Under the pieces are notes generated by a model. The model had not been told where the DNA came from, did not search any database, and was given only the letters and a program-made list of their open reading frames with translations. 64,000 nt of DNA from NCBI RefSeq assembly GCF_021021415.1, contig NZ_JAINWJ010000030.1, positions 1 to 64,000 of the forward strand, written 5' to 3'. Numbering within the stretch: position 1 is the stretch's first letter; the number at the start of each line of letters is the position of its first letter. This DNA comes from Martelella mediterranea (lineage in GTDB: Bacteria > Pseudomonadota > Alphaproteobacteria > Rhizobiales > Rhizobiaceae). The position numbers and the translations under genes are program-made. Positions 49,409 to 59,294 of the stretch are shown here, in pieces.

Positions 49409-51148
49409 CTACCGCCCCAGCCCCCGCTTGCGGCCGAAGCTCCAATCTACACCACCGTCGCCGCGCGCGACGCCGGAGATATGGCGGCCGAGATGTTTCT
49501 CCATCGATGGCGTCCAGGGCACGAGCTGGAAGCCGAGCCCGTCGTCGATCATCGCGAAGCGACCAGAGGCGAGCGTCAGGCGCTGGCGATAGGCGCCGGC
49601 GACATGCTCGCCGGCACCTGCACGCTGGAACGGTTGTCCGGTCTTCGCCGCTAGTTTCTCGCCGATTTCGTCCAACTCGCGCCGGCGGAGCGTGTCGATG
49701 AGATTGCGGCTGAAGACGATGCGCCGCCCCTGCCGCTGGGCCAAGCCTTCCCCGATGAGGTGGTCGGCCCGCCTGTCGAGAGCGTCGCGTACTTCCCCGC
49801 CAAACCCGTTTTCTGACAGCGCGGCCGGCTCGCGCGCGATGTTCTGCCGGTCGAGCCAGGTCGCACCCGATGCCGTCACCTGCCGTTCGATGTCGAGATC
49901 GGAGCGCACCGCGAGCGCGATCCGCCGCTGGCCGCGGGAATCGTCATAGGCGCGCAGCTCGACGATCGAGCCCGGCGCGCTATCGCCGGCGGCGCTGAGA
50001 TCGGCGAGCTTGAAGTGATGGGATCGACCGTCGATGCCGTCGACCACGGCATAGGCCGTGCCCTTGATCTCATCATCGAGGCCGCGCTCGACCAGACGCC
50101 CGACGATGGGCGCGTCGAGGCTTTCGGCTGCCAACACGTAGTCCGCCGATCCACGCTCAATGCCGCGCTCGGTCAACGCGCGGTGCATGCGCCTGATGAT
50201 GTCGCCGCGCTCCCCGAGTTCACGCAGCATCGCCTCGGCCTTGTCGCCGATCATCCATTGACCGGGGCCGACCTGCTCGGCCAAGCCGAGTGTTTCCAGC
50301 TTGCGCAGGCGCCCGACCTTCAGCGCATGGAATTCATCCGGTTGTTCGCCCGGCGGCGGAGCGAGGTCGATCACTCCGGTGCGCCGGCCATCGCGCACAA
50401 GCTGACGGTCGAGCTGGGTCCAGCGCTCGGTCTCGATCTGGTTTTCGAGGGTCCGTCGGATATCGAGATCGGTGCGCGGGCCGAGTTCCTGGGTGATGAG
50501 ATCGCGTGCGCGGTCACGCATGCCTTCCTTGATATAGTCCCGCGATATCACGAGGTCCTCGCCGTCGTCGCGTTTGCCGCGCACGATCAGATGGATATGC
50601 GGGTATTCGGTGTTCCAGTGATCGACGGCGACCCAGTCGAGTTCGGTGCCGAGATCCTTCTCCATCTGTCCTACGAGATCGCTGGTTAAGGATCGCAGGT
50701 CCGACATCTCCAGAGCATCGTCGGGCGAGACGATGAAGCGGAAATGGTGCCTGTCGTCCTCGCAGCGCTCGGCGAAGGCCCTGCCGTCTGCTTCTTCCTC
50801 TCCCGGCCCGAACAGGCGCGCCTTCTCCCCGTCTCGGGTGACGCCGTCGCGGCGCAGATAGTCGAGATGGGTGCCGAGCGACGCCGTCCGGCCGGAATGG
50901 CGAACCACGCGCGCCTTGATGACCGCGCCGCGCGAGCGCGCGGTGATGAGACGATTGGCCTGGATACTGGCGCGCTGGCCGTGGCCGAAGCGCGAGCGGT
51001 TGCCGGACGTGATGCGCCCGGATCGCGAGACGCCGCCGCCTGCCTTCTTCGCGGCCGCCAGCGCCTGGGCGATGAAGGGACGCGCCGCCTGCGCACGGGT
51101 CGAACGGATACGGCCAGGCCGAATGCGGAACTCGCGATCATCGGCCAT
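49409..51148 (-). CDS. Relaxase/mobilisation nuclease with DUF3363
   Basis: A 579-residue DNA-nicking enzyme that should cut and bind oriT and pilot the strand into the recipient. The N-terminal half contains the metal-binding histidines His177, His184 and His186 in DHWNTEYPHIHLIV, and an upstream THLDYLRRDGV motif; the C-terminal half is the DUF3363 domain of alphaproteobacterial relaxases. GGAGCG lies before the ATG at 51148. Directly upstream is a repeat-rich non-coding region that is the best oriT candidate. Confidence 0.92.
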   Translation of the reverse strand: MADDREFRIRPGRIRSTRAQAARPFIAQALAAAKKAGGGVSRSGRITSGNRSRFGHGQRASIQANRLITARSRGAVIKARVVRHSGRTASLGTHLDYLRRDGVTRDGEKARLFGPGEEEADGRAFAERCEDDRHHFRFIVSPDDALEMSDLRSLTSDLVGQMEKDLGTELDWVAVDHWNTEYPHIHLIVRGKRDDGEDLVISRDYIKEGMRDRARDLITQELGPRTDLDIRRTLENQIETERWTQLDRQLVRDGRRTGVIDLAPPPGEQPDEFHALKVGRLRKLETLGLAEQVGPGQWMIGDKAEAMLRELGERGDIIRRMHRALTERGIERGSADYVLAAESLDAPIVGRLVERGLDDEIKGTAYAVVDGIDGRSHHFKLADLSAAGDSAPGSIVELRAYDDSRGQRRIALAVRSDLDIERQVTASGATWLDRQNIAREPAALSENGFGGEVRDALDRRADHLIGEGLAQRQGRRIVFSRNLIDTLRRRELDEIGEKLAAKTGQPFQRAGAGEHVAGAYRQRLTLASGRFAMIDDGLGFQLVPWTPSMEKHLGRHISGVARGDGGVDWSFGRKRGLGR

Positions 51149-51157
51149 GGCATCGCT

Positions 51158-51316
51158 CCGCAATGTGCGGAAAACCCAGTAAATCTAGGATGTTGAACGC
51201 TCGGCGCACATTGCGGCAGAGCCGGACAATGTGCGGAGCGTCCAAGAAAATCCCACAAAAACAACCGACCGACCGGCGCGCAATGTGCGCCCTTTTATCC
51301 TGCCATCGGTCGGTTG
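51158..51316. repeat. Repeat-rich intergenic region, candidate oriT
   Basis: The 243-bp gap between the relaxase and transglycosylase genes holds four copies of CAATGTGCG: 51161-51169, 51213-51205 (inverted), 51227-51235 and 51281-51289. The first and last are embedded in perfect palindromes (CCGCA-ATG-TGCGG and GCGCA-ATG-TGCGC). An 11-bp inverted repeat, CAACCGACCGA at 51262-51272 with its complement at 51306-51316, encloses the fourth copy. Clustered dyads beside a relaxase gene are the usual form of an origin of transfer. The nick site is not identifiable by eye; the repeats could also be operators. Confidence 0.6.
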
Positions 51317-52546: not shown

Positions 52547-53092
52547 TCACCGCGTCGGCGCGCGCCACACGAAGCGGCCATCGCCGTCTTCGTCGGTGTA
52601 AAGAGGGACGGCCCGGCCAATGACGGTCGTCGCCGGAAGCGGTCCGAAATACCGCCCATCAAGGCTGTCGGAGACTTGCCAGTTCATGAGAAAAAGTTCG
52701 TCGGCGGCGACGGTGCGGCAGCCGCTCCAGACCGGCAGTGGGCGGTCCAGGCGATCGCGGTCGCGGGCCTCGCCCATCGCGATTCCGTCGACCGTGATGG
52801 TGCGGCCGATCCGGCATATGCGCTGTCCCGGCAGCCCGAGGACGCGCTTCAGGATCGGCAAGTCGCGGCCGATATAACCGCGCTCGACCATGAAGTCCTC
52901 GAGCGGCTCGGGCGGCATCACGGCGACCAGATCGGGGACGTCGAGATGCGCGGCGGGTTCGATGCGGTAGAGCCCGATCGGTGCGCTGGCCGACACATTC
53001 CAGACGAGCTTGAGCGAGGTCGGAACGATGGCGGCCGCGGTTACGCCCATGGCGGTGAAGTAGGTCAGCATGACGTAGCCGAAGCGGGTCAT
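52547..53092 (-). CDS. traF: S26-family signal peptidase TraF
   Basis: A 181-residue inner membrane protease with one N-terminal helix and the serine/lysine dyad: Ser in SASAPIGLYR and Lys in LPILKRVLGLPGQ. TraF of conjugative systems matures the pilin TrbC. The start MTRFGYVML overlaps the DUF2840 stop by four bases (ATGA). The frame extends far upstream, but that stretch overlaps DUF2840 and looks like a shadow translation. Confidence 0.93.
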   Translation of the reverse strand: MTRFGYVMLTYFTAMGVTAAAIVPTSLKLVWNVSASAPIGLYRIEPAAHLDVPDLVAVMPPEPLEDFMVERGYIGRDLPILKRVLGLPGQRICRIGRTITVDGIAMGEARDRDRLDRPLPVWSGCRTVAADELFLMNWQVSDSLDGRYFGPLPATTVIGRAVPLYTDEDGDGRFVWRAPTR

Positions 53093-53610
53093 CGTTCGAT
53101 CTCCCGCCGCTTGAGCCAGGCCTGGTGGCGCTCCTGCGTGTAGGGACGCGGCTCGTGGCCGGCGCTCATCCGGTGCGCCACATGGCGCCAGTGATCGGGG
53201 GCGGCGTCGCAGGGATCGACGTCCGAGGCTTCCACCGCGTCGATGTGCTGGAGCACCTTCTCGACCTTCGGCCAGCCTTCGATCTTGAGCAGGATTTCGG
53301 CGCCGGGGCGCACGAAGGGAAGCGTCTGATAGGCGGAGCCCGGAGCGACCGCGCGCAGGATGTCGATGCGCGAGATGACGGTGCCGTAGTCGTTCGCCGC
53401 CCAACGCACGAAGGCGAAGACGGCGCCCGGCCGGAAGGAGACGACCCGTCGGCGGCGGTCGATGATTCGCTCACCGGCCTCGCGGCCAAAGCGAATCCAA
53501 TATTCGATCCCGCCCTCGATCCAGGTCAGTTCGACATGCGTGAGTGCGTCGGAAGTGTGGGCGGACGGCATCGGGCCGGCGCCGACACCTGCGGCTGTGG
53601 CGCCGGTCAT
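53089..53610 (-). CDS. DUF2840 protein
   Basis: A 173-residue protein of the DUF2840 family (LTHVELTWIEGGIEYWIRFG, then YGTVISRIDILRAV), a constant neighbour of traF and parA in this ICE family. Function unknown. Both ends overlap neighbours by ATGA junctions, so it is co-translated with them. Confidence 0.9.
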   Translation of the reverse strand: MTGATAAGVGAGPMPSAHTSDALTHVELTWIEGGIEYWIRFGREAGERIIDRRRRVVSFRPGAVFAFVRWAANDYGTVISRIDILRAVAPGSAYQTLPFVRPGAEILLKIEGWPKVEKVLQHIDAVEASDVDPCDAAPDHWRHVAHRMSAGHEPRPYTQERHQAWLKRREIER

Positions 53611-53858
53611 GAGGGGTCTCCTTCGCGCTTGGGGAATTCGCGTTCGAGCAACTCGCGCAGCATGTCGGCGACGGTGACGCCGCGCTGGAACGCGGCGATC
53701 TTGATGCGCCCGCGCAGCTCGGGCGTGATGTCGATGGTCAGGCGGGCGGTGAACCCGGACCGCTTGCCGTCACGGGGAGCGGCATCGTCGGACCTGATCC
53801 ACTGCTCGGGATCGCCTGGTCTCGTGGCGAAGGCGCGGCGGTTTGGACGGTCGCTCAT
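53607..53858 (-). CDS. Ribbon-helix-helix partition-associated protein
   Basis: An 83-residue protein with a disordered N-terminus and a C-terminal ribbon-helix-helix (GFTARLTIDITPELRGRIKIAAFQRGVTV). It overlaps both parA and DUF2840 by four bases. Position next to a ParA ATPase suggests a ParG-like centromere-binding partner; this is inference. Confidence 0.8.
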   Translation of the reverse strand: MSDRPNRRAFATRPGDPEQWIRSDDAAPRDGKRSGFTARLTIDITPELRGRIKIAAFQRGVTVADMLRELLEREFPKREGDPS

Positions 53859-54493
53859 GGTGCGAGCCTTCCGATCTCGGCCGCGAGCGCCGACACTTCC
53901 CGCGCGGCGATGCTGTCTGCATCGCACTCGCAAACGAGGCGGCCGGACCGCGCGGCCGACGCAAAGATGACGCGCTGGCCGATCGTCGCGCGCAGCGCGG
54001 GAGGGTCCTGGTCGGCGAGCGCATCACCGGTCTCGCGCGCGATGATGGTTCGTGCCGGACAACGGTTGAGGACGAAGCGCACGGCGAGCTGCGGACGGAA
54101 TATCCGCGCCTCCTCGATCAGGCGCAGGATCTCCGCCGAGGCCCAGCCATCGAGAGGTGACGGCTGCACCGGAATGAGGATGACGTCGGCGGCAAGCAGC
54201 GCCGAGCGCATCAGCCCCGCGACGCGCGGCGGACCGTCGATGACGACATTGTCGGCAGTGCGGGCGAGTTCAGGCGCTTCGTGGTGGAGCGTATCCCGCG
54301 CCAGGCCAATGACGCCGAAACGTCGCGGCAGACTCTCGTGGCTGCGCCTTTCCGACCAGTCGAGTGCCGATCCCTGCGGGTCAGCATCGATCAGGGTGAC
54401 AGTGCGTCCGCCTCGTGCCCATTCGCCGGCGAGGTGCAAGGCGAGCGTCGTCTTGCCGACACCGCCCTTCTGATTGAGGAACGCCGCAATCAT
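53855..54493 (-). CDS. parA: ParA-family partition ATPase
   Basis: A 212-residue ATPase with deviant Walker A FLNQKGGVGKTTLALHLA, VTLIDADPQGSALDW and Walker B-like NVVIDGPP. It would stabilise the excised circular form of the element or place it in the cell. It overlaps repA and the RHH gene by four bases each, forming a rep-par module inside the ICE. Confidence 0.94.
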   Translation of the reverse strand: MIAAFLNQKGGVGKTTLALHLAGEWARGGRTVTLIDADPQGSALDWSERRSHESLPRRFGVIGLARDTLHHEAPELARTADNVVIDGPPRVAGLMRSALLAADVILIPVQPSPLDGWASAEILRLIEEARIFRPQLAVRFVLNRCPARTIIARETGDALADQDPPALRATIGQRVIFASAARSGRLVCECDADSIAAREVSALAAEIGRLAP

Positions 54494-55665
54494 GAAGCGT
54501 CTCCCGCACCAGTACGGGCCGGACCGCTCTTGGAGACAGCATCGTCATCGCGTTCGGAGACCGCCGTCTGCTGCCTGCGTTCATCCTCTTTTCGGTGTGT
54601 CGGAGAGTGGTTCTCCCCAGAATGCCCGCCCCTACAAAAGTTAGATTCTTTGTTAGATTCTAAGTTAAGGGGTCGATTTCCGCTTTCTGCGGAAGAGGTT
54701 AGATGCGGTTTGGGTTCCCGATAGCACGATGGGTCGGTTCCCGATGGCACGATAGTGCGGGTTCCCGATAGCACGACGGCTTCCACAGCCTGTCCACAGG
54801 GCGCCGGCTCGAAGGCGAGCAGCGTACGGCCGCCCGCCTCGATTTCGAGAAACAGGGAGTAGCCTGGCAGCGGCTGGCGCTGGATGATCGCGCGGAGTTC
54901 GAAGGCGAAGCGCTTGAACGGCGAGAGGCTTCCGGATTTGACGTAGAGGTGCTGGAAGTCGAACCGCCATCCGCGCTTCTGCCTGCCGCCATGCTTGCGC
55001 ACGATCCGGTAGAGCCAGCGTTCGATACCGCCCGTGAGGCCGAAATAGGCGCGGTCGATGGTGAGGACGAGCGCCTCGTCCAGCACCGCTTTATAGAACC
55101 AATCCGGCACGATGAGCTCGATCCCGTCGGGATTGCCGAATGCATCGGCGCGCTCGGTCCATTCGTTGATCCAGGAGAAGCGATGCGTGCGCCGACCGGT
55201 CGCTGGTGCAACAGAGTTGGGCTCATTGCGGCTTCGAGGATTCGCCGGAGGTTGCCGCAAGGTGGTCGCGACCGTGGTCGATTGAAGGCGGTCGAGCGCG
55301 GCCCTCAGCCGGCGATAGTCGCGCGCGCCGGTGCCACGTCCGATGAAGGTCAGGATTTGGTATGGGGTGGTTGCGATCAGGCGCGACGTGCGAAAGCCGT
55401 TGTCGCGCGCCTCGACGATCTGGCTAGCCGCCCAGATCAGGATGTCCGCATCCCAGATCGTGGCCATGCCGTGCTCGGGCACGGCTTCCACGCGGATGGC
55501 GATCTCGCCGGTGCGGAAGTCGATCGGCTCGACGCGGTGGGATTTGGATAGAGAGAAAAATGGATAGGCCATGAGGTCCTGCGCATCGCGCGGCGCGAGA
55601 TCGCTTGGCAGAGCGCGGAACAGCTCAAGCTGCTCCCGTTCCGATCTGCGAGGGCGCGCCGTCAT
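54490..55665 (-). CDS. repA: Replication initiator protein A
   Basis: A 391-residue RPA-family replication initiator (QLELFRALPSDLAPRDAQDLMAYPFFSL, later YPIL-like and RWLYRIVRKHGG with WRFDFQHLYVKSGS). It has two winged-helix-like domains in residues 20-290 and a disordered polar tail. Such genes let ICEs replicate briefly after excision. The DNA encoding residues near 295-320 carries three 17-bp direct repeats (separate entry). The gene overlaps parA by four bases. Confidence 0.92.
   Translation of the reverse strand: MTARPRRSEREQLELFRALPSDLAPRDAQDLMAYPFFSLSKSHRVEPIDFRTGEIAIRVEAVPEHGMATIWDADILIWAASQIVEARDNGFRTSRLIATTPYQILTFIGRGTGARDYRRLRAALDRLQSTTVATTLRQPPANPRSRNEPNSVAPATGRRTHRFSWINEWTERADAFGNPDGIELIVPDWFYKAVLDEALVLTIDRAYFGLTGGIERWLYRIVRKHGGRQKRGWRFDFQHLYVKSGSLSPFKRFAFELRAIIQRQPLPGYSLFLEIEAGGRTLLAFEPAPCGQAVEAVVLSGTRTIVPSGTDPSCYREPKPHLTSSAESGNRPLNLESNKESNFCRGGHSGENHSPTHRKEDERRQQTAVSERDDDAVSKSGPARTGAGDAS
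54713..54777 (-). repeat. Three iteron-like direct repeats inside repA
   Basis: On the coding strand TCGTGC(T/C)ATCGGGAACC occurs three times, starting 24 and 23 bases apart (plus-strand positions 54760-54776, 54736-54752 and 54713-54729). The first two are read in one codon phase (LSGT, PSGT) and the third in another (CYREP), so the conservation is at DNA level. Spacing of about two helical turns suits an initiator-binding array. Confidence 0.7.
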
Positions 55666-55673
55666 GGGAGTAA

Positions 55674-55946
55674 TCAGCGGTTCTCGGCAGACGACGGATC
55701 GTCATGACGTTTGGCCGGAAGGACCGTGCCGACGCCGGGGTCGGAGGTGGATCGCTTGGCGCCACGTTCCGCCCAGGCCTGCAGGTCGTCGACGGAATAG
55801 ACGACACGACCACCGAGTTTGCGGTAGGCAGGACCGGTCCCGTAGGTGCGGTGCTTTTCGAGGGTTCGGGCGGAAAGGCTGAGAAAACGGGCCGCCTCGG
55901 GCGTTCTCAGATAGCGCGGCGGGATGCCGGCGGTGGCTGCGGACAT
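55674..55946 (-). CDS. AlpA/MerR-like helix-turn-helix protein
   Basis: A 90-residue DNA-binding protein (YLRTPEAARFLSLSARTLEKHR, then GRVVYSVDDLQAW) of the excisionase/AlpA type HTH-17 family. In this ICE group it lies upstream of repA and may act as activator or excision factor. It ends 8 bp before repA on the same strand. A start at MSAATAG has GAGGCACG upstream. Confidence 0.88.
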   Translation of the reverse strand: MSAATAGIPPRYLRTPEAARFLSLSARTLEKHRTYGTGPAYRKLGGRVVYSVDDLQAWAERGAKRSTSDPGVGTVLPAKRHDDPSSAENR

Positions 55947-56073
55947 GATCGTGCCTCCGTGATCCTTGTTGGCGCCGCCGGATATCGGCGGGGCGTCAGG
56001 GTCACGGTGGCGGAGAAGAAAGGGCGTGGGGGAGTGCGAAGATTCTAAAGAAAATTCGCACCCTCGTCGGTCG

Positions 56074-56634
56074 CTAGCCCTGATCGGGTCGGTGGCCGAG
56101 AAGAAGGCGGCGATAGCCGCCCGCCACGAGATCGAGACCAGAGGCGGTGCGACGCATCACGGTGTCGCGCAAAGGAGTGGACTTCCAGGTGATGGCGTTG
56201 ACTGGAGCGGCGCCGAAGACGGCCTCGGCGATCTCCTGATAGGTGGCGCCTGCTTGGCGTGCGTCGATTGCGCGGAGGCTTTCGATGAGTCGTTGCCTGC
56301 GTTGCGGCGTCAATCGCGTGTCAGGCGAACTCCGGTGATGGAGGACAGCATCGCGGAACCGAACAATTGCATCGACTCGATCCTGCATGAACTGGTCGAC
56401 GAGCGTAACTGCCGCGACCGGTCCGTCGGGCGCTCTGCCATCGAGGCAGATTGCCACGAAGTGCTCGGTGTCGATCACGAAGTGAATATAGAGACCTTCA
56501 TCCGATGTTCGGGCATCGGCTGGAACGACCTTGAAATTCACGGTGGTCATGTTTGGCCCCTGCTGAGGGGCGAAGATCAGGACGCTCGGGTCGACGGCAG
56601 GGCTCCAGAAGATGTCGGCATTGGGCGCGGACAA
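56074..56634 (-). CDS. DUF2285 protein, probable 3' half of an FseA-like activator
   Basis: A 186-residue frame with FWSPAVDPSVLIF at the N-terminus and a C-terminal DUF2285 domain (ATYQEIAEAVFG and LRDTVMRRTASGLDLV). No ribosome binding site precedes its first possible start, a TTG; an internal ATG at 56550 also has only a weak one. It overlaps the DUF6499 gene by 137 bp in the +1 frame. This is the arrangement known from msi172/msi171 of ICEMlSym R7A, where a programmed +1 frameshift makes the excision activator FseA. Expression as a fusion is likely but unproven. Confidence 0.8.
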   Translation of the reverse strand: MSAPNADIFWSPAVDPSVLIFAPQQGPNMTTVNFKVVPADARTSDEGLYIHFVIDTEHFVAICLDGRAPDGPVAAVTLVDQFMQDRVDAIVRFRDAVLHHRSSPDTRLTPQRRQRLIESLRAIDARQAGATYQEIAEAVFGAAPVNAITWKSTPLRDTVMRRTASGLDLVAGGYRRLLLGHRPDQG

Positions 56635-56833
56635 GTTCGGCGCTATCGGGAAAGCGCAACCCCCAGTGCGCCGCCAGCGCTGTCGCGGCGCGATCGTCCG
56701 CCGGATCGGAAGCCGAGACTTCCTTTTCGTATTCGGGGTTGCGCCTGAGGAACTCCCAGGCGAGTTCGGAAGGATTAAGACCGTTCAGATATCGATAGTC
56801 CGTCGGGTCGCGCCAGTTCGTTTCCGCCACCAT
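56498..56833 (-). CDS. DUF6499 protein, probable 5' half of an FseA-like activator
   Basis: A 111-residue frame whose first 70 residues (NWRDPTDYRYLNGLNPSELAWEFLRRNPEY... to HWGLRFPDS) are a DUF6499 domain. After that the sequence loses protein character (Arg/Cys/Pro-rich), as expected for read-through beyond a frameshift point. A CCC-G at 56650-56647, in frame just after WGLRF, is one possible +1 slip site. Translation stops at 56498 if no shift occurs. Confidence 0.82.
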   Translation of the reverse strand: MVAETNWRDPTDYRYLNGLNPSELAWEFLRRNPEYEKEVSASDPADDRAATALAAHWGLRFPDSAELVRAQCRHLLEPCRRPERPDLRPSAGAKHDHREFQGRSSRCPNIG

Positions 56834-56950: not shown

Positions 56951-57214
56951 TCAGTGATAGGCGGATCGAAGAAGATCGCGGTAGCCGTTCTCCGTCATCC
57001 AATGCGCGCGGTCGAGATGTGTCTGGTGAACGTGTTGAGCTCGCTCGGGCTGCACGTCAGGATCGAGACCAAAGATGATGCGCACAGCTTCAGCCCAATG
57101 CGCGGCGTCGGCCTCCGCATCAAGCAAACGAAGATAGGTCGCGAAATGCGCACGATCGTATTCGGTCAGGTTTTCGCTATGCGGCGGCTCGTCCAGAAAG
57201 TCAGCTTGCCCCAT
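56951..57214 (-). CDS. Small DUF2285 protein (QseM/Msi107-like)
   Basis: An 87-residue acidic protein: LTEYDRAHFATYLRLLDAEA followed by GLDPDVQPERAQHVHQTHLDRA and WMTENGYRDLL. This is a stand-alone DUF2285 type common in ICEs. In ICEMlSym R7A such a protein, QseM, inhibits the FseA activator, and another, Msi107, aids transfer. Position just upstream of the DUF6499/DUF2285 pair fits either. GGGG-rich sequence before the ATG is a weak ribosome binding site. Confidence 0.75.
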   Translation of the reverse strand: MGQADFLDEPPHSENLTEYDRAHFATYLRLLDAEADAAHWAEAVRIIFGLDPDVQPERAQHVHQTHLDRAHWMTENGYRDLLRSAYH

Positions 57215-57339: not shown

Positions 57340-57600
57340 TCAGGCCAGCGCTCCTGACTTACTAGGTCTCGCGGCATCGACAATCATCACTCCTTCGCCT
57401 CGGTCAGAGGACAGGAAGACGATGCCCGCGGCTTCCAGCGCCCGGCGAATCTGGTCGCATGTGCTCTCATGCACCTTGAGTCCGTTGACGGACTCGAGGC
57501 GCTTGAGCGCGGTCAGCGAAACCAGGGCCTTCTCTGCGAGCATCTCTTGTGTCCAACCGAGCAATGCGCGCGCGGCCCGTGCCTGTCGGGCGGTGATCAT
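57340..57600 (-). CDS. XRE-type helix-turn-helix regulator
   Basis: An 86-residue DNA-binding protein: HTH ARQARAARALLGWTQEMLAEKALVS (residues 4-30), then KRLESVNGLKVHESTCDQI and a short C-terminal beta segment. An almost perfect Shine-Dalgarno (TAGGAGGTGATC) precedes the ATG, so translation should be efficient. It is divergent from a second XRE gene across a 155-bp region with a long inverted repeat. Confidence 0.87.
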   Translation of the reverse strand: MITARQARAARALLGWTQEMLAEKALVSLTALKRLESVNGLKVHESTCDQIRRALEAAGIVFLSSDRGEGVMIVDAARPSKSGALA

Positions 57601-57755: not shown

Positions 57756-57974
57756 ATGGATATGCGCAAATTGGTCGGCCGGAACTTCGCCCGCCTGCGT
57801 CGGGAGAAAGGCCTGACCCAGGAAGAGGTCGAAGCGCGCTCCGGTTTCAGTCAACAGTATCTCAGCAGCCTTGAACGCGGCCGGAGGAACCCGACCGTGA
57901 TCACGCTTTATGAATTGGCTCAGGCCCTCGGCGTCAGCCACATGGAATTGGTCCGGCCCGACGATCAGCTTTGA
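57756..57974 (+). CDS. XRE-family regulator, C-protein-like (QseC-like)
   Basis: A 72-residue protein that is essentially one HTH domain: NFARLRREKGLTQEEVEARSGFSQQYLSSLERG and TLYELAQALGVSHMELV. Size and sequence resemble controller proteins of restriction-modification systems and QseC of rhizobial ICEs. No ribosome binding site precedes the ATG. The long inverted repeat upstream is the probable operator for autoregulation. Confidence 0.87.
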   Translation: MDMRKLVGRNFARLRREKGLTQEEVEARSGFSQQYLSSLERGRRNPTVITLYELAQALGVSHMELVRPDDQL

Positions 57975-58173: not shown

Positions 58174-59220
58174 CTATGTCAGAGGAGCGGCGGCCTCTGG
58201 CCGCTTACCCCAGTCGAACTCAGTTCCATCCACCCACATGCGATGCAGTATGACACCGATGCGGCGAGCGAGGGCGACGATCGCCTTCTTGTGGCCTCGA
58301 CGTCGCGAGACCTGAGCAGCCCAAGCCTTTAGGGTGGACCAGCGTTTTACGCGAGTCAGTAGCACCTGTGCTGCCTCGTAGAGCGCGCTGCGCGTCATGG
58401 CGTCACCCCATCTCGAAATGCGGCCGGTGCGATCCACTTCGCCGGATTGGTGCTTGCGCGGCGTCAGACCAAAATGGGCACCAACGGTTCGCGACCGAGT
58501 GAAGCGAGATGGGACATCGACCGTTGCCCGGAAGATGAGCGCTACGAGCGGGCCGACCCCCGGCACCGTCATAAACCGGCGCGAAACAGTGTCGTCCCGC
58601 GCGAGACGGACAAGCAAATCGTCCAACCGACCGAACTGCTCCCGCAGCGATCGCCGCGCCAACAGGAGCGTATCAGCGACTATGTGTAGGTCGCTTCCTG
58701 CGATCAGTTCCCGTACTCGCGGCTCGAAATCGCGCGCCGTGACTTTGCCGAGGTGATATCCGAAGTTTCGGATGAGACCACGGATTTCATTTTCAACATC
58801 CTGGAGCTTGTTTCGCAGGAGTTGGCGGGCCGTCAGGACGGTCCGAAGGCGCTGGCTTGTCGGCGTCTTGACGTGGACGGGTTTGAAGAGGCCGACGCGC
58901 ATCATCTGCGCGATTCCGCGCGCATCATGCCGGTCGGTCTTGTTGAGTTGCGCGGAGAGAGCCGCCTTCATGTGCCGGGTCTCTACACACACGATGGGAA
59001 TGCCGGCTTCGGCTAAATGCCCATAAATGTGCTGAGACAGCATCCCTGCTTCGAGACCGACGCGGACGACTGGAAGCGGGAGCGACAGGATATGCTGCGC
59101 AATCTCTTCCGGATTGGATGAAAGCTTTCGTTCATGCGCTACCTGCCCATCGGCGTTGACAACGCAGAGATTGATTGTTCGGGCGGAAACATCCAGCCCA
59201 ATATAATAGCTTTGAGACAT
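58174..59220 (-). mobile_element. IS110-family transposase
   Basis: A 348-residue DEDD transposase. The N-terminal RuvC-like domain has IGLDVSARTINLCVV, VGLEAGMLSQHIYG and KTDRHDARGIAQMM. The C-terminal transposase-20 domain has MTVPGVGPLVALIF, GLTPRKHQSGEVDRTGRISRWGD and the catalytic Ser region. The start MSQSYYIG has GGAG 6 bases upstream. It looks intact. IS110 elements lack clear inverted ends and target duplications, and I could not fix the element's borders. It separates the ICE regulators from the lead-type operon. Confidence 0.92.
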
Positions 59221-59294
59221 GCCGAACTCCTCCGAATCAAGAGTCGACACGTCTCATAACCAATCTACAGACCATTTTGTAAACTACGACTATT

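Follow-up and report, generated by a model that had tools for sequence, protein, structure and literature searches.

The window, a 64,000-nt stretch of Martelella mediterranea DNA (NZ_JAINWJ010000030.1, positions 1–64,000), contains a regulatory cassette read on the minus strand (Table 1). At its core a DUF6499 frame overlaps a DUF2285 frame. A QseM-like gene lies upstream of this pair and an RdfS-like gene downstream, followed by genes for a replication initiator, partition and conjugation. The DUF6499 protein carries LAWEFLRRNP, which contains the AWEFLRRN motif of the excision activator FseA, and DUF2285 follows directly, in the +1 frame, across a conserved WGL junction. Coding of the junction by UGGGGG is a trait expected only of split FseA members. 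No NCBIfam model matched either FseA frame or the QseM-like, RdfS-like and RPA proteins at E up to 0.001, and PDB searches with the DUF6499 and DUF2285 ORFs gave none up to E = 1.

Table 1. Features of the cassette and its surroundings, in window coordinates.
Feature	Position	Strand	Basis or remark
DUF6499 ORF	56833-56498	-	111 aa; Pfam PF20109, E = 3.7e-20
DUF2285 ORF	56634-56074	-	186 aa; Pfam PF10074, E = 1.1e-28
N-terminal DUF6499 part of FseA-like activator, ATG 56833 to slip codon	56654..56833	-	PF20109
Internal Shine-Dalgarno-like TGGGGGT (codes W-G and first base of L)	56659..56665	-	anti-SD synonymous bias
Proposed slip site TTT_C	56650..56653	-	next codon CCG 56649-56647; TTT conservation
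DUF2285 part (C-terminal, predicted DNA-binding), +1 frame after slip	56074..56649	-	PF10074; +1-frame selection
Zero-frame tail of unshifted 111-aa product	56498..56650	-	tail length 1 to 236 codons in 98 aligned +1 loci
Candidate FseA box, GTGCGA-N16-TCGCAC inverted repeat upstream of rdfS-like gene	56034..56061	-	direct reading
RdfS-like recombination directionality factor (HTH_17), predicted activator target	55674..55946	-	PF12728, E = 2.3e-10; PDB 8DGL RdfS, E = 4.4e-10
QseM-like lone DUF2285 antiactivator	56951..57214	-	PDB 7UQT QseM, E = 1.2e-20
HTH_3 regulator upstream of qseM-like gene	57340..57600	-	PF01381, E = 2e-5
Divergent XRE regulator	57756..57974	+	PF01381, E = 1.8e-18
Replication initiator protein A, after rdfS	54490..55665	-	PF10134, E = 1.7e-82
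ParA partition ATPase	53855..54493	-	NF041546, E = 4.8e-79, over cut-off
DUF2840 protein	53089..53610	-	PF11000, E = 5.9e-78
TraF-like S26 signal peptidase	52547..53404	-	PF10502, E = 8.2e-27
RlxS-type relaxase, below curated cut-off	49409..51163	-	NF041267, E = 2.2e-177, 591.7 bits vs cut-off 850; PF11843

The DUF2285 frame is offset by +1 from the DUF6499 frame, and stops close the third frame in the overlap. At the junction the window reads TGG GGG TTG CGC TTT C, with WGL coded by a TGGGGG-type run. A Shine-Dalgarno sequence precedes the DUF6499 ATG at 56833 (anti-SD duplex −10.1 kcal/mol). Ahead of its FW motif the +1 frame has a single start codon, TTG at 56634, without Shine-Dalgarno pairing (+0.3 kcal/mol). 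The initial annotation had taken this overlap for a candidate programmed +1 frameshift that makes an FseA-like activator, and its particulars hold: the exact offset between the two Pfam domains, the DUF2285 frame without a ribosome binding site of its own, the quoted peptides and a CCC-G at 56650–56647 are all present. The zero-frame tail of the unshifted product apparently lacks conserved protein character.

We compared the frame relation across relatives. At E up to 0.001, PF20109 matched in 17 of 289 genomes sampled from the class, 61 of 297 from the order and 43 of 398 from the phylum, these samples overlapping. The locus set comprised 155 loci with 156 DUF6499 matches, of which 150 were distinct once six duplicates were dropped; at least two other listed PF20109 loci, G461:C64 and G890:C10, lie outside it. 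DUF2285 was in the +1 frame in 103 of the distinct matches and in one open frame with DUF6499 in 39; in 8 no DUF2285 was found. Any other offset was absent from all 150. Because 103 share the same offset and none has another, the +1 relation is not a chance one. This classification replaces that of an earlier, smaller round (91 loci, 90 matches: 84 in +1, 2 in the same ORF, 4 without DUF2285). The 103 include the window itself and a second locus in the same genome (L002, contig C55), a remnant with a WGLRF TTT-CCC junction and a truncated DUF2285 part. For the FseA family at large, a +1 programmed frameshift has been described as conserved, with ∼61% of 4709 homologues needing the shift (PMC10359603).

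Single-frame relatives were what the initial annotation expected to see if the window carried a simple frameshift mutation or a sequencing error in a normally unbroken gene. The 39 single open frames are of this kind, but they bear only weakly on the window. A quickly built tree of the DUF2285 part, with 137 rows (two +1 rows and three fused rows were left out as too short), requires at least 12 changes between split and fused states, of which starred branches force four. Every one of the 13 rows in the clade that holds the window is +1, and the single-frame rows L116, L119 and L120 fall in a larger, 83-row clade, where their branches are 1.2 to 1.65 changes per column long. Named relatives at 92–95% identity come from Nitratireductor, Rhodobium, Euryhalocaulis, Parvibaculum, Cucumibacter and a Tepidamorphus MAG, and seven of eight have the window's offset. 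The eighth, L163 (Devosia pacifica), retains an rdfS-like gene and the DUF2285 part but yielded neither DUF6499 nor slip site. With the +1 state common to 103 of 150 matches, mutation or error is already contradicted by the relatives, and we give it almost no weight. Plasmids of Azospirillum lipoferum and Indioceanicola also show the gene order DUF2285-DUF6499-DUF2285-HTH-RPA.

Selection on the two frames was assessed by codon position in eight sequences, the window and L156–L162. Before the slip codon, variable sites were distributed 17/9/35 over zero-frame positions 1/2/3; in the overlap the distribution became 28/16/14, a concentration at the third codon position in the +1 reading. The best point for a switch of frame lay within 56655–56621 (2-lnL interval), and the switch model improved lnL by 26 over an all-+1 frame and by 47 over an all-zero frame. 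This interval contains the TTT codon discussed below, but does not alone single it out. The +1 frame is thus under selection from close behind that codon.

This bears on whether the two frames instead encode separate proteins made by coupled or internal initiation, as has been suggested for rihF1a/rihF1b of Azorhizobium (PMC9601964). Starts are available in the DUF2285 frame: TTG 56634, and an in-frame ATG at 56550 (duplex −5.4 kcal/mol) from which the PF10074 domain alone would be made. Among the 97 of 103 +1 loci counted, with the aromatic motif located by a loose pattern and L155 read at the wrong TTT, a start codon precedes the motif in 68, and is ATG in 36; the remaining 29 have no ATG, GTG or TTG there. 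The missing Shine-Dalgarno pairing at TTG 56634, the onset of +1-frame selection just after the slip codon and a strong synonymous bias at the junction also argue against separate translation, which we regard as very improbable.

The junction could be aligned in 98 of the 103 +1 loci and 32 of the 39 fused loci, the rest (5 and 7) lacking the W/F-G motif. The fifth position of WGLxF is Phe in 96 of the 98 +1 loci, and all 96 use TTT, against a background of 178 TTT among 673 Phe codons (26%). Loci L090 and L014 have TTT one codon later, and four of the five loci without the motif have it when read by hand, which brings the loci with TTT at the junction to 102 of 103. The following base is C in 96 of these 102 and T in 6, with two TTT-TTT-C sites counted at the second TTT. 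In the fused loci, only 8 of 32 have Phe at this position, split evenly between TTT and TTC. Among 37 representatives under 50% identity (three of 40 were dropped, having no motif row), TTT was found in 35 of 35 Phe rows, GGG in 25 rows and CGA in 14 of 18 Arg rows; apart from this clustering, the locus counts and the z-scores given below are uncorrected for relatedness. Alignment with other DUF6499/DUF2285 pairs, part of the check put forward in the initial annotation, finds the offset in most of them and TTT near invariant at the junction of the split ones.

The slip site named there was CCC-G, where tRNA-Pro would shift from CCC to CCG. Position five is followed by the codon CCC in the window and in 47 of the 98 +1 loci that could be aligned, and a slip there would give the window the same peptide (F-P-I) as a slip on UUU_C, so mass spectrometry alone cannot separate the two. 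In 35 of the 98, however, that codon is CGC, and elsewhere CGT, TGC, CAC or TCC. Since TTT is near invariant while the next codon varies, UUU_C fits best; CCC-G is rejected as the general slip site, and we consider it very unlikely in the window too. From these alignments the slip site is most likely UUU_C at 56653–56650. The main text of PMC10359603 contains neither UUU nor TTT and, the original 2015 FseA paper aside, no slip codon for FseA was found in the passages seen of the other literature searched; we make no claim that the site is new. The +1 member L068 has TGT at the slip codon, as does L170 on Azospirillum lipoferum plasmid AZO_p2, by the same single-base difference; among named plasmid copies TTT_C occurs in three of four. 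Re-pairing from UUU to UUC does not explain these two members, which may be inactive or slip in some other way.

Codon choice just upstream of TTT is also biased. In the window the internal Shine-Dalgarno-like stretch pairs with the anti-SD at −9.6 kcal/mol. Across +1 loci this pairing averaged −8.31 kcal/mol versus −5.67 for synonymous versions (z = −19.7), whereas in the 32 fused loci it was −5.43 versus −5.31 (z = −0.5). Confinement of the bias to split genes suggests that UGGGGG serves the slip. The Gly codon is GGG in 71 of 98 +1 loci and the Leu codon TTG or TTA in 61 of 89, each against a background of 14%. Arg directly before TTT is coded by CGA in 48 of 62 cases (background 11%); the window itself has CGC. 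CGA is read by weak inosine wobble. The run ends 6 nt from UUU, and the A-site codon is a sense codon in all but a few loci. A downstream hairpin as stimulator was not supported: in 98 loci, a few of them one codon out of register, the 60 nt after the slip averaged −15.6 kcal/mol versus −18.5 for control windows further down, and were thus the less structured.

Slippage during transcription, rather than on the ribosome, would produce the same frame relation. That relation is what it accounts for; the site offers only TTT and CCC runs, and the anti-SD codon bias speaks for the ribosome, making transcriptional slippage exceedingly unlikely.

Taken as ribosomal, the programmed +1 shift into an FseA-like activator is strongly supported by comparison of sequences. 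In our reading, the DUF6499 and DUF2285 frames are very probably one gene, joined by a +1 slip at UUU_C, for an FseA-type activator of the rdfS-like and transfer genes. The slip and its rate, the P-site re-pairing, the DNA binding and the control of transfer are predicted steps of the following model. A ribosome would read the DUF6499 part from ATG 56833 until the internal TGGGGGU pairs with 16S rRNA and holds UUU (56653–56651) in the P site. There tRNA-Phe (anticodon GAA) would slip by one base, from UUU to the better match UUC, and from CCG 56649 onward the DUF2285 part would be translated in the +1 frame. The predicted fusion has roughly 252 aa (61 + 191), with a junction peptide beginning FPIAPNLSAPNADIFW. 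This product would bind the inverted repeat at 56061–56034 and activate the rdfS-like gene together with the transfer genes that follow, with the upstream QseM-like protein restraining the activator.

The neighbouring genes are those expected of such a circuit. PF10074 (E = 6.6e-6) is the sole Pfam family in the QseM-like protein, which has no DUF6499. Of the 103 +1 loci, 66 have a lone DUF2285 gene upstream in the same orientation; in L024, L025, L026, L048, L086, L087 and L090 it lies instead downstream of fseA on the opposite strand. The match of the RdfS-like protein to the winged-HTH structure 8DGL spans its residues 9–69. Within the next 900 nt, 75 of 103 +1 loci and 23 of 39 fused loci have an rdfS-like gene, some loci ending too early for it to be seen. 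The HTH_3 gene adjoins the cassette in six of the eight named relatives, and the XRE regulator appears QseC-like in position. A perfect 11-bp inverted repeat (57701–57711/57729–57739, 17 nt between arms) lies ahead of this divergent gene and is operator-like. In a PADLOC scan of three regulators, the sole match was the XRE protein, to HTH models.

The inverted repeat ahead of the rdfS-like gene is a candidate FseA box by its sequence and spacing. It lies 88–93 nt before the ATG, versus 62–67 in the published logo (PMC10359603). Six of 75 +1 loci were dropped for a long gap between fseA and rdfS, and the scan covered the other 69. At 7-mer spacers of 14–18, half-site pairs turned up in 31 of the 69, versus 0–2 in other five-wide spacer classes. 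By spacer (14/15/16/17/18) they occurred in 6/5/6/11/4 loci, with all three inner bases complementary in 5/4/4/6/1. The published 15–16 bp between hexamers corresponds to spacer 14 (and 13, in one locus) only, the others being wider: the window's own spacing recurs in 6 of 69, and most pairs in relatives are 1–4 nt wider. When no half-site bases were required, perfect 6-bp inverted repeats showed no distinct maximum at 16 bp (18 of 75 loci). Such repeats were frequent in the fseA-rdfS gaps at spacers of 5 and 7 nt (33 and 40 of 75 +1 loci).

The window was initially described as part of a metal-carrying ICE, which here is at most a candidate designation. Conjugation genes (TrbI, TrbL, a TraG-type P-loop ATPase, a coupling protein and the RlxS-type relaxase) lie beside copper and other metal genes, but a search for tyrosine integrases gave 17 matches in the genome and none on the window's 102-kb contig. 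An IS110-family transposase (58174–59250) sits between the regulators and the metal-gene block. Six of the eight named loci preserve the complete gene order, HTH gene through S26 peptidase. The expectation that transfer is controlled as in ICEMlSym of strain R7A stands in part. FseA-, QseM- and RdfS-like components are all there; the upper control seems different, since the genome's two autoinducer-binding domains both lie off the window's contig. A TraR-type quorum regulator beside the fseA-like gene, as in the R7A wiring, was not found on the contig, though one encoded elsewhere may still control it.

FseA-type control sets the moment at which a mobile element leaves the chromosome and transfers its cargo. 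Annotations frequently treat the two halves of FseA as separate or unknown genes (PMC10359603), so the activator is easily missed, and the 16-base junction motif should aid in finding and annotating further members. The codon evidence also makes the slip mechanism testable with a handful of single-base changes in a reporter. FseA, its +1 frameshift, QseM and the FseA box have already been published (PMC10359603; PMC11963761). The window's pair belongs to that family, and what we add is a sharper, testable slip motif.

The closest known system is FseA of R7A (msi172-msi171), which we compared by its published description. Likenesses are the joining of DUF6499 and DUF2285 by +1 programmed frameshifting, the AWEFLRRN motif, a WGL coded by UGGGGG, the antiactivator QseM, and inverted hexamers 16 bp apart upstream of rdfS (PMC10359603). 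The window differs in having its qseM-like, fseA-like and rdfS-like genes in one compact row, with no autoinducer-binding domain on the contig. In non-symbiotic Mesorhizobium ICEs and Tn4371-like rdfS-traF regions, a replication initiator and DUF2840 lie between rdfS and traF in the same order as here, an arrangement that symbiosis ICEs are reported to lack (PMC8627217). That source gives the initiator as Rep_3, but the one here matches the Pfam RPA family, and no tyrosine integrase was found on the window's contig.

As for the slip itself, prfB (release factor 2) likewise has a GGGGG-type internal Shine-Dalgarno-like element upstream of a +1 slip. Its slippery CTTT, however, lies 3 nt downstream and is accompanied by a stop codon, in contrast to the UUU_C, 6-nt spacing and sense codon here (PMC12421855). 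With 6-nt spacing and only rarely an A-site stop, the prfB mechanism cannot simply be copied. A P-site re-pairing of tRNA-Phe on UUU_C has been proposed for influenza A PA-X (UCC_UUU_CGU), albeit on a eukaryotic ribosome with no Shine-Dalgarno element; its authors argued for movement from UUU to the stronger UUC, and predicted a UUU_C class with restricted E- and A-site codons (PMC3498833). We tentatively raise the possibility, somewhat short of an even chance in our judgement, that the FseA family forms its own class of bacterial +1 recoding, TGGGGGU-UGCGA-UUU_C, with the Shine-Dalgarno-like element 6 nt before the slip, a preferred E-site CGA and, in general, a sense codon at the A site, a signal retained among the mobile elements of Alphaproteobacteria. 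UGGGGG coding WGL has been described as resembling a ribosome binding site, and was suggested to impose a pause that lets QseM bind (PMC10359603). If such a class exists, UGGGGG would be a slip stimulator rather than solely a pause for QseM binding, given a bias seen only in split genes, and the class would be the bacterial form of the one predicted from PA-X.
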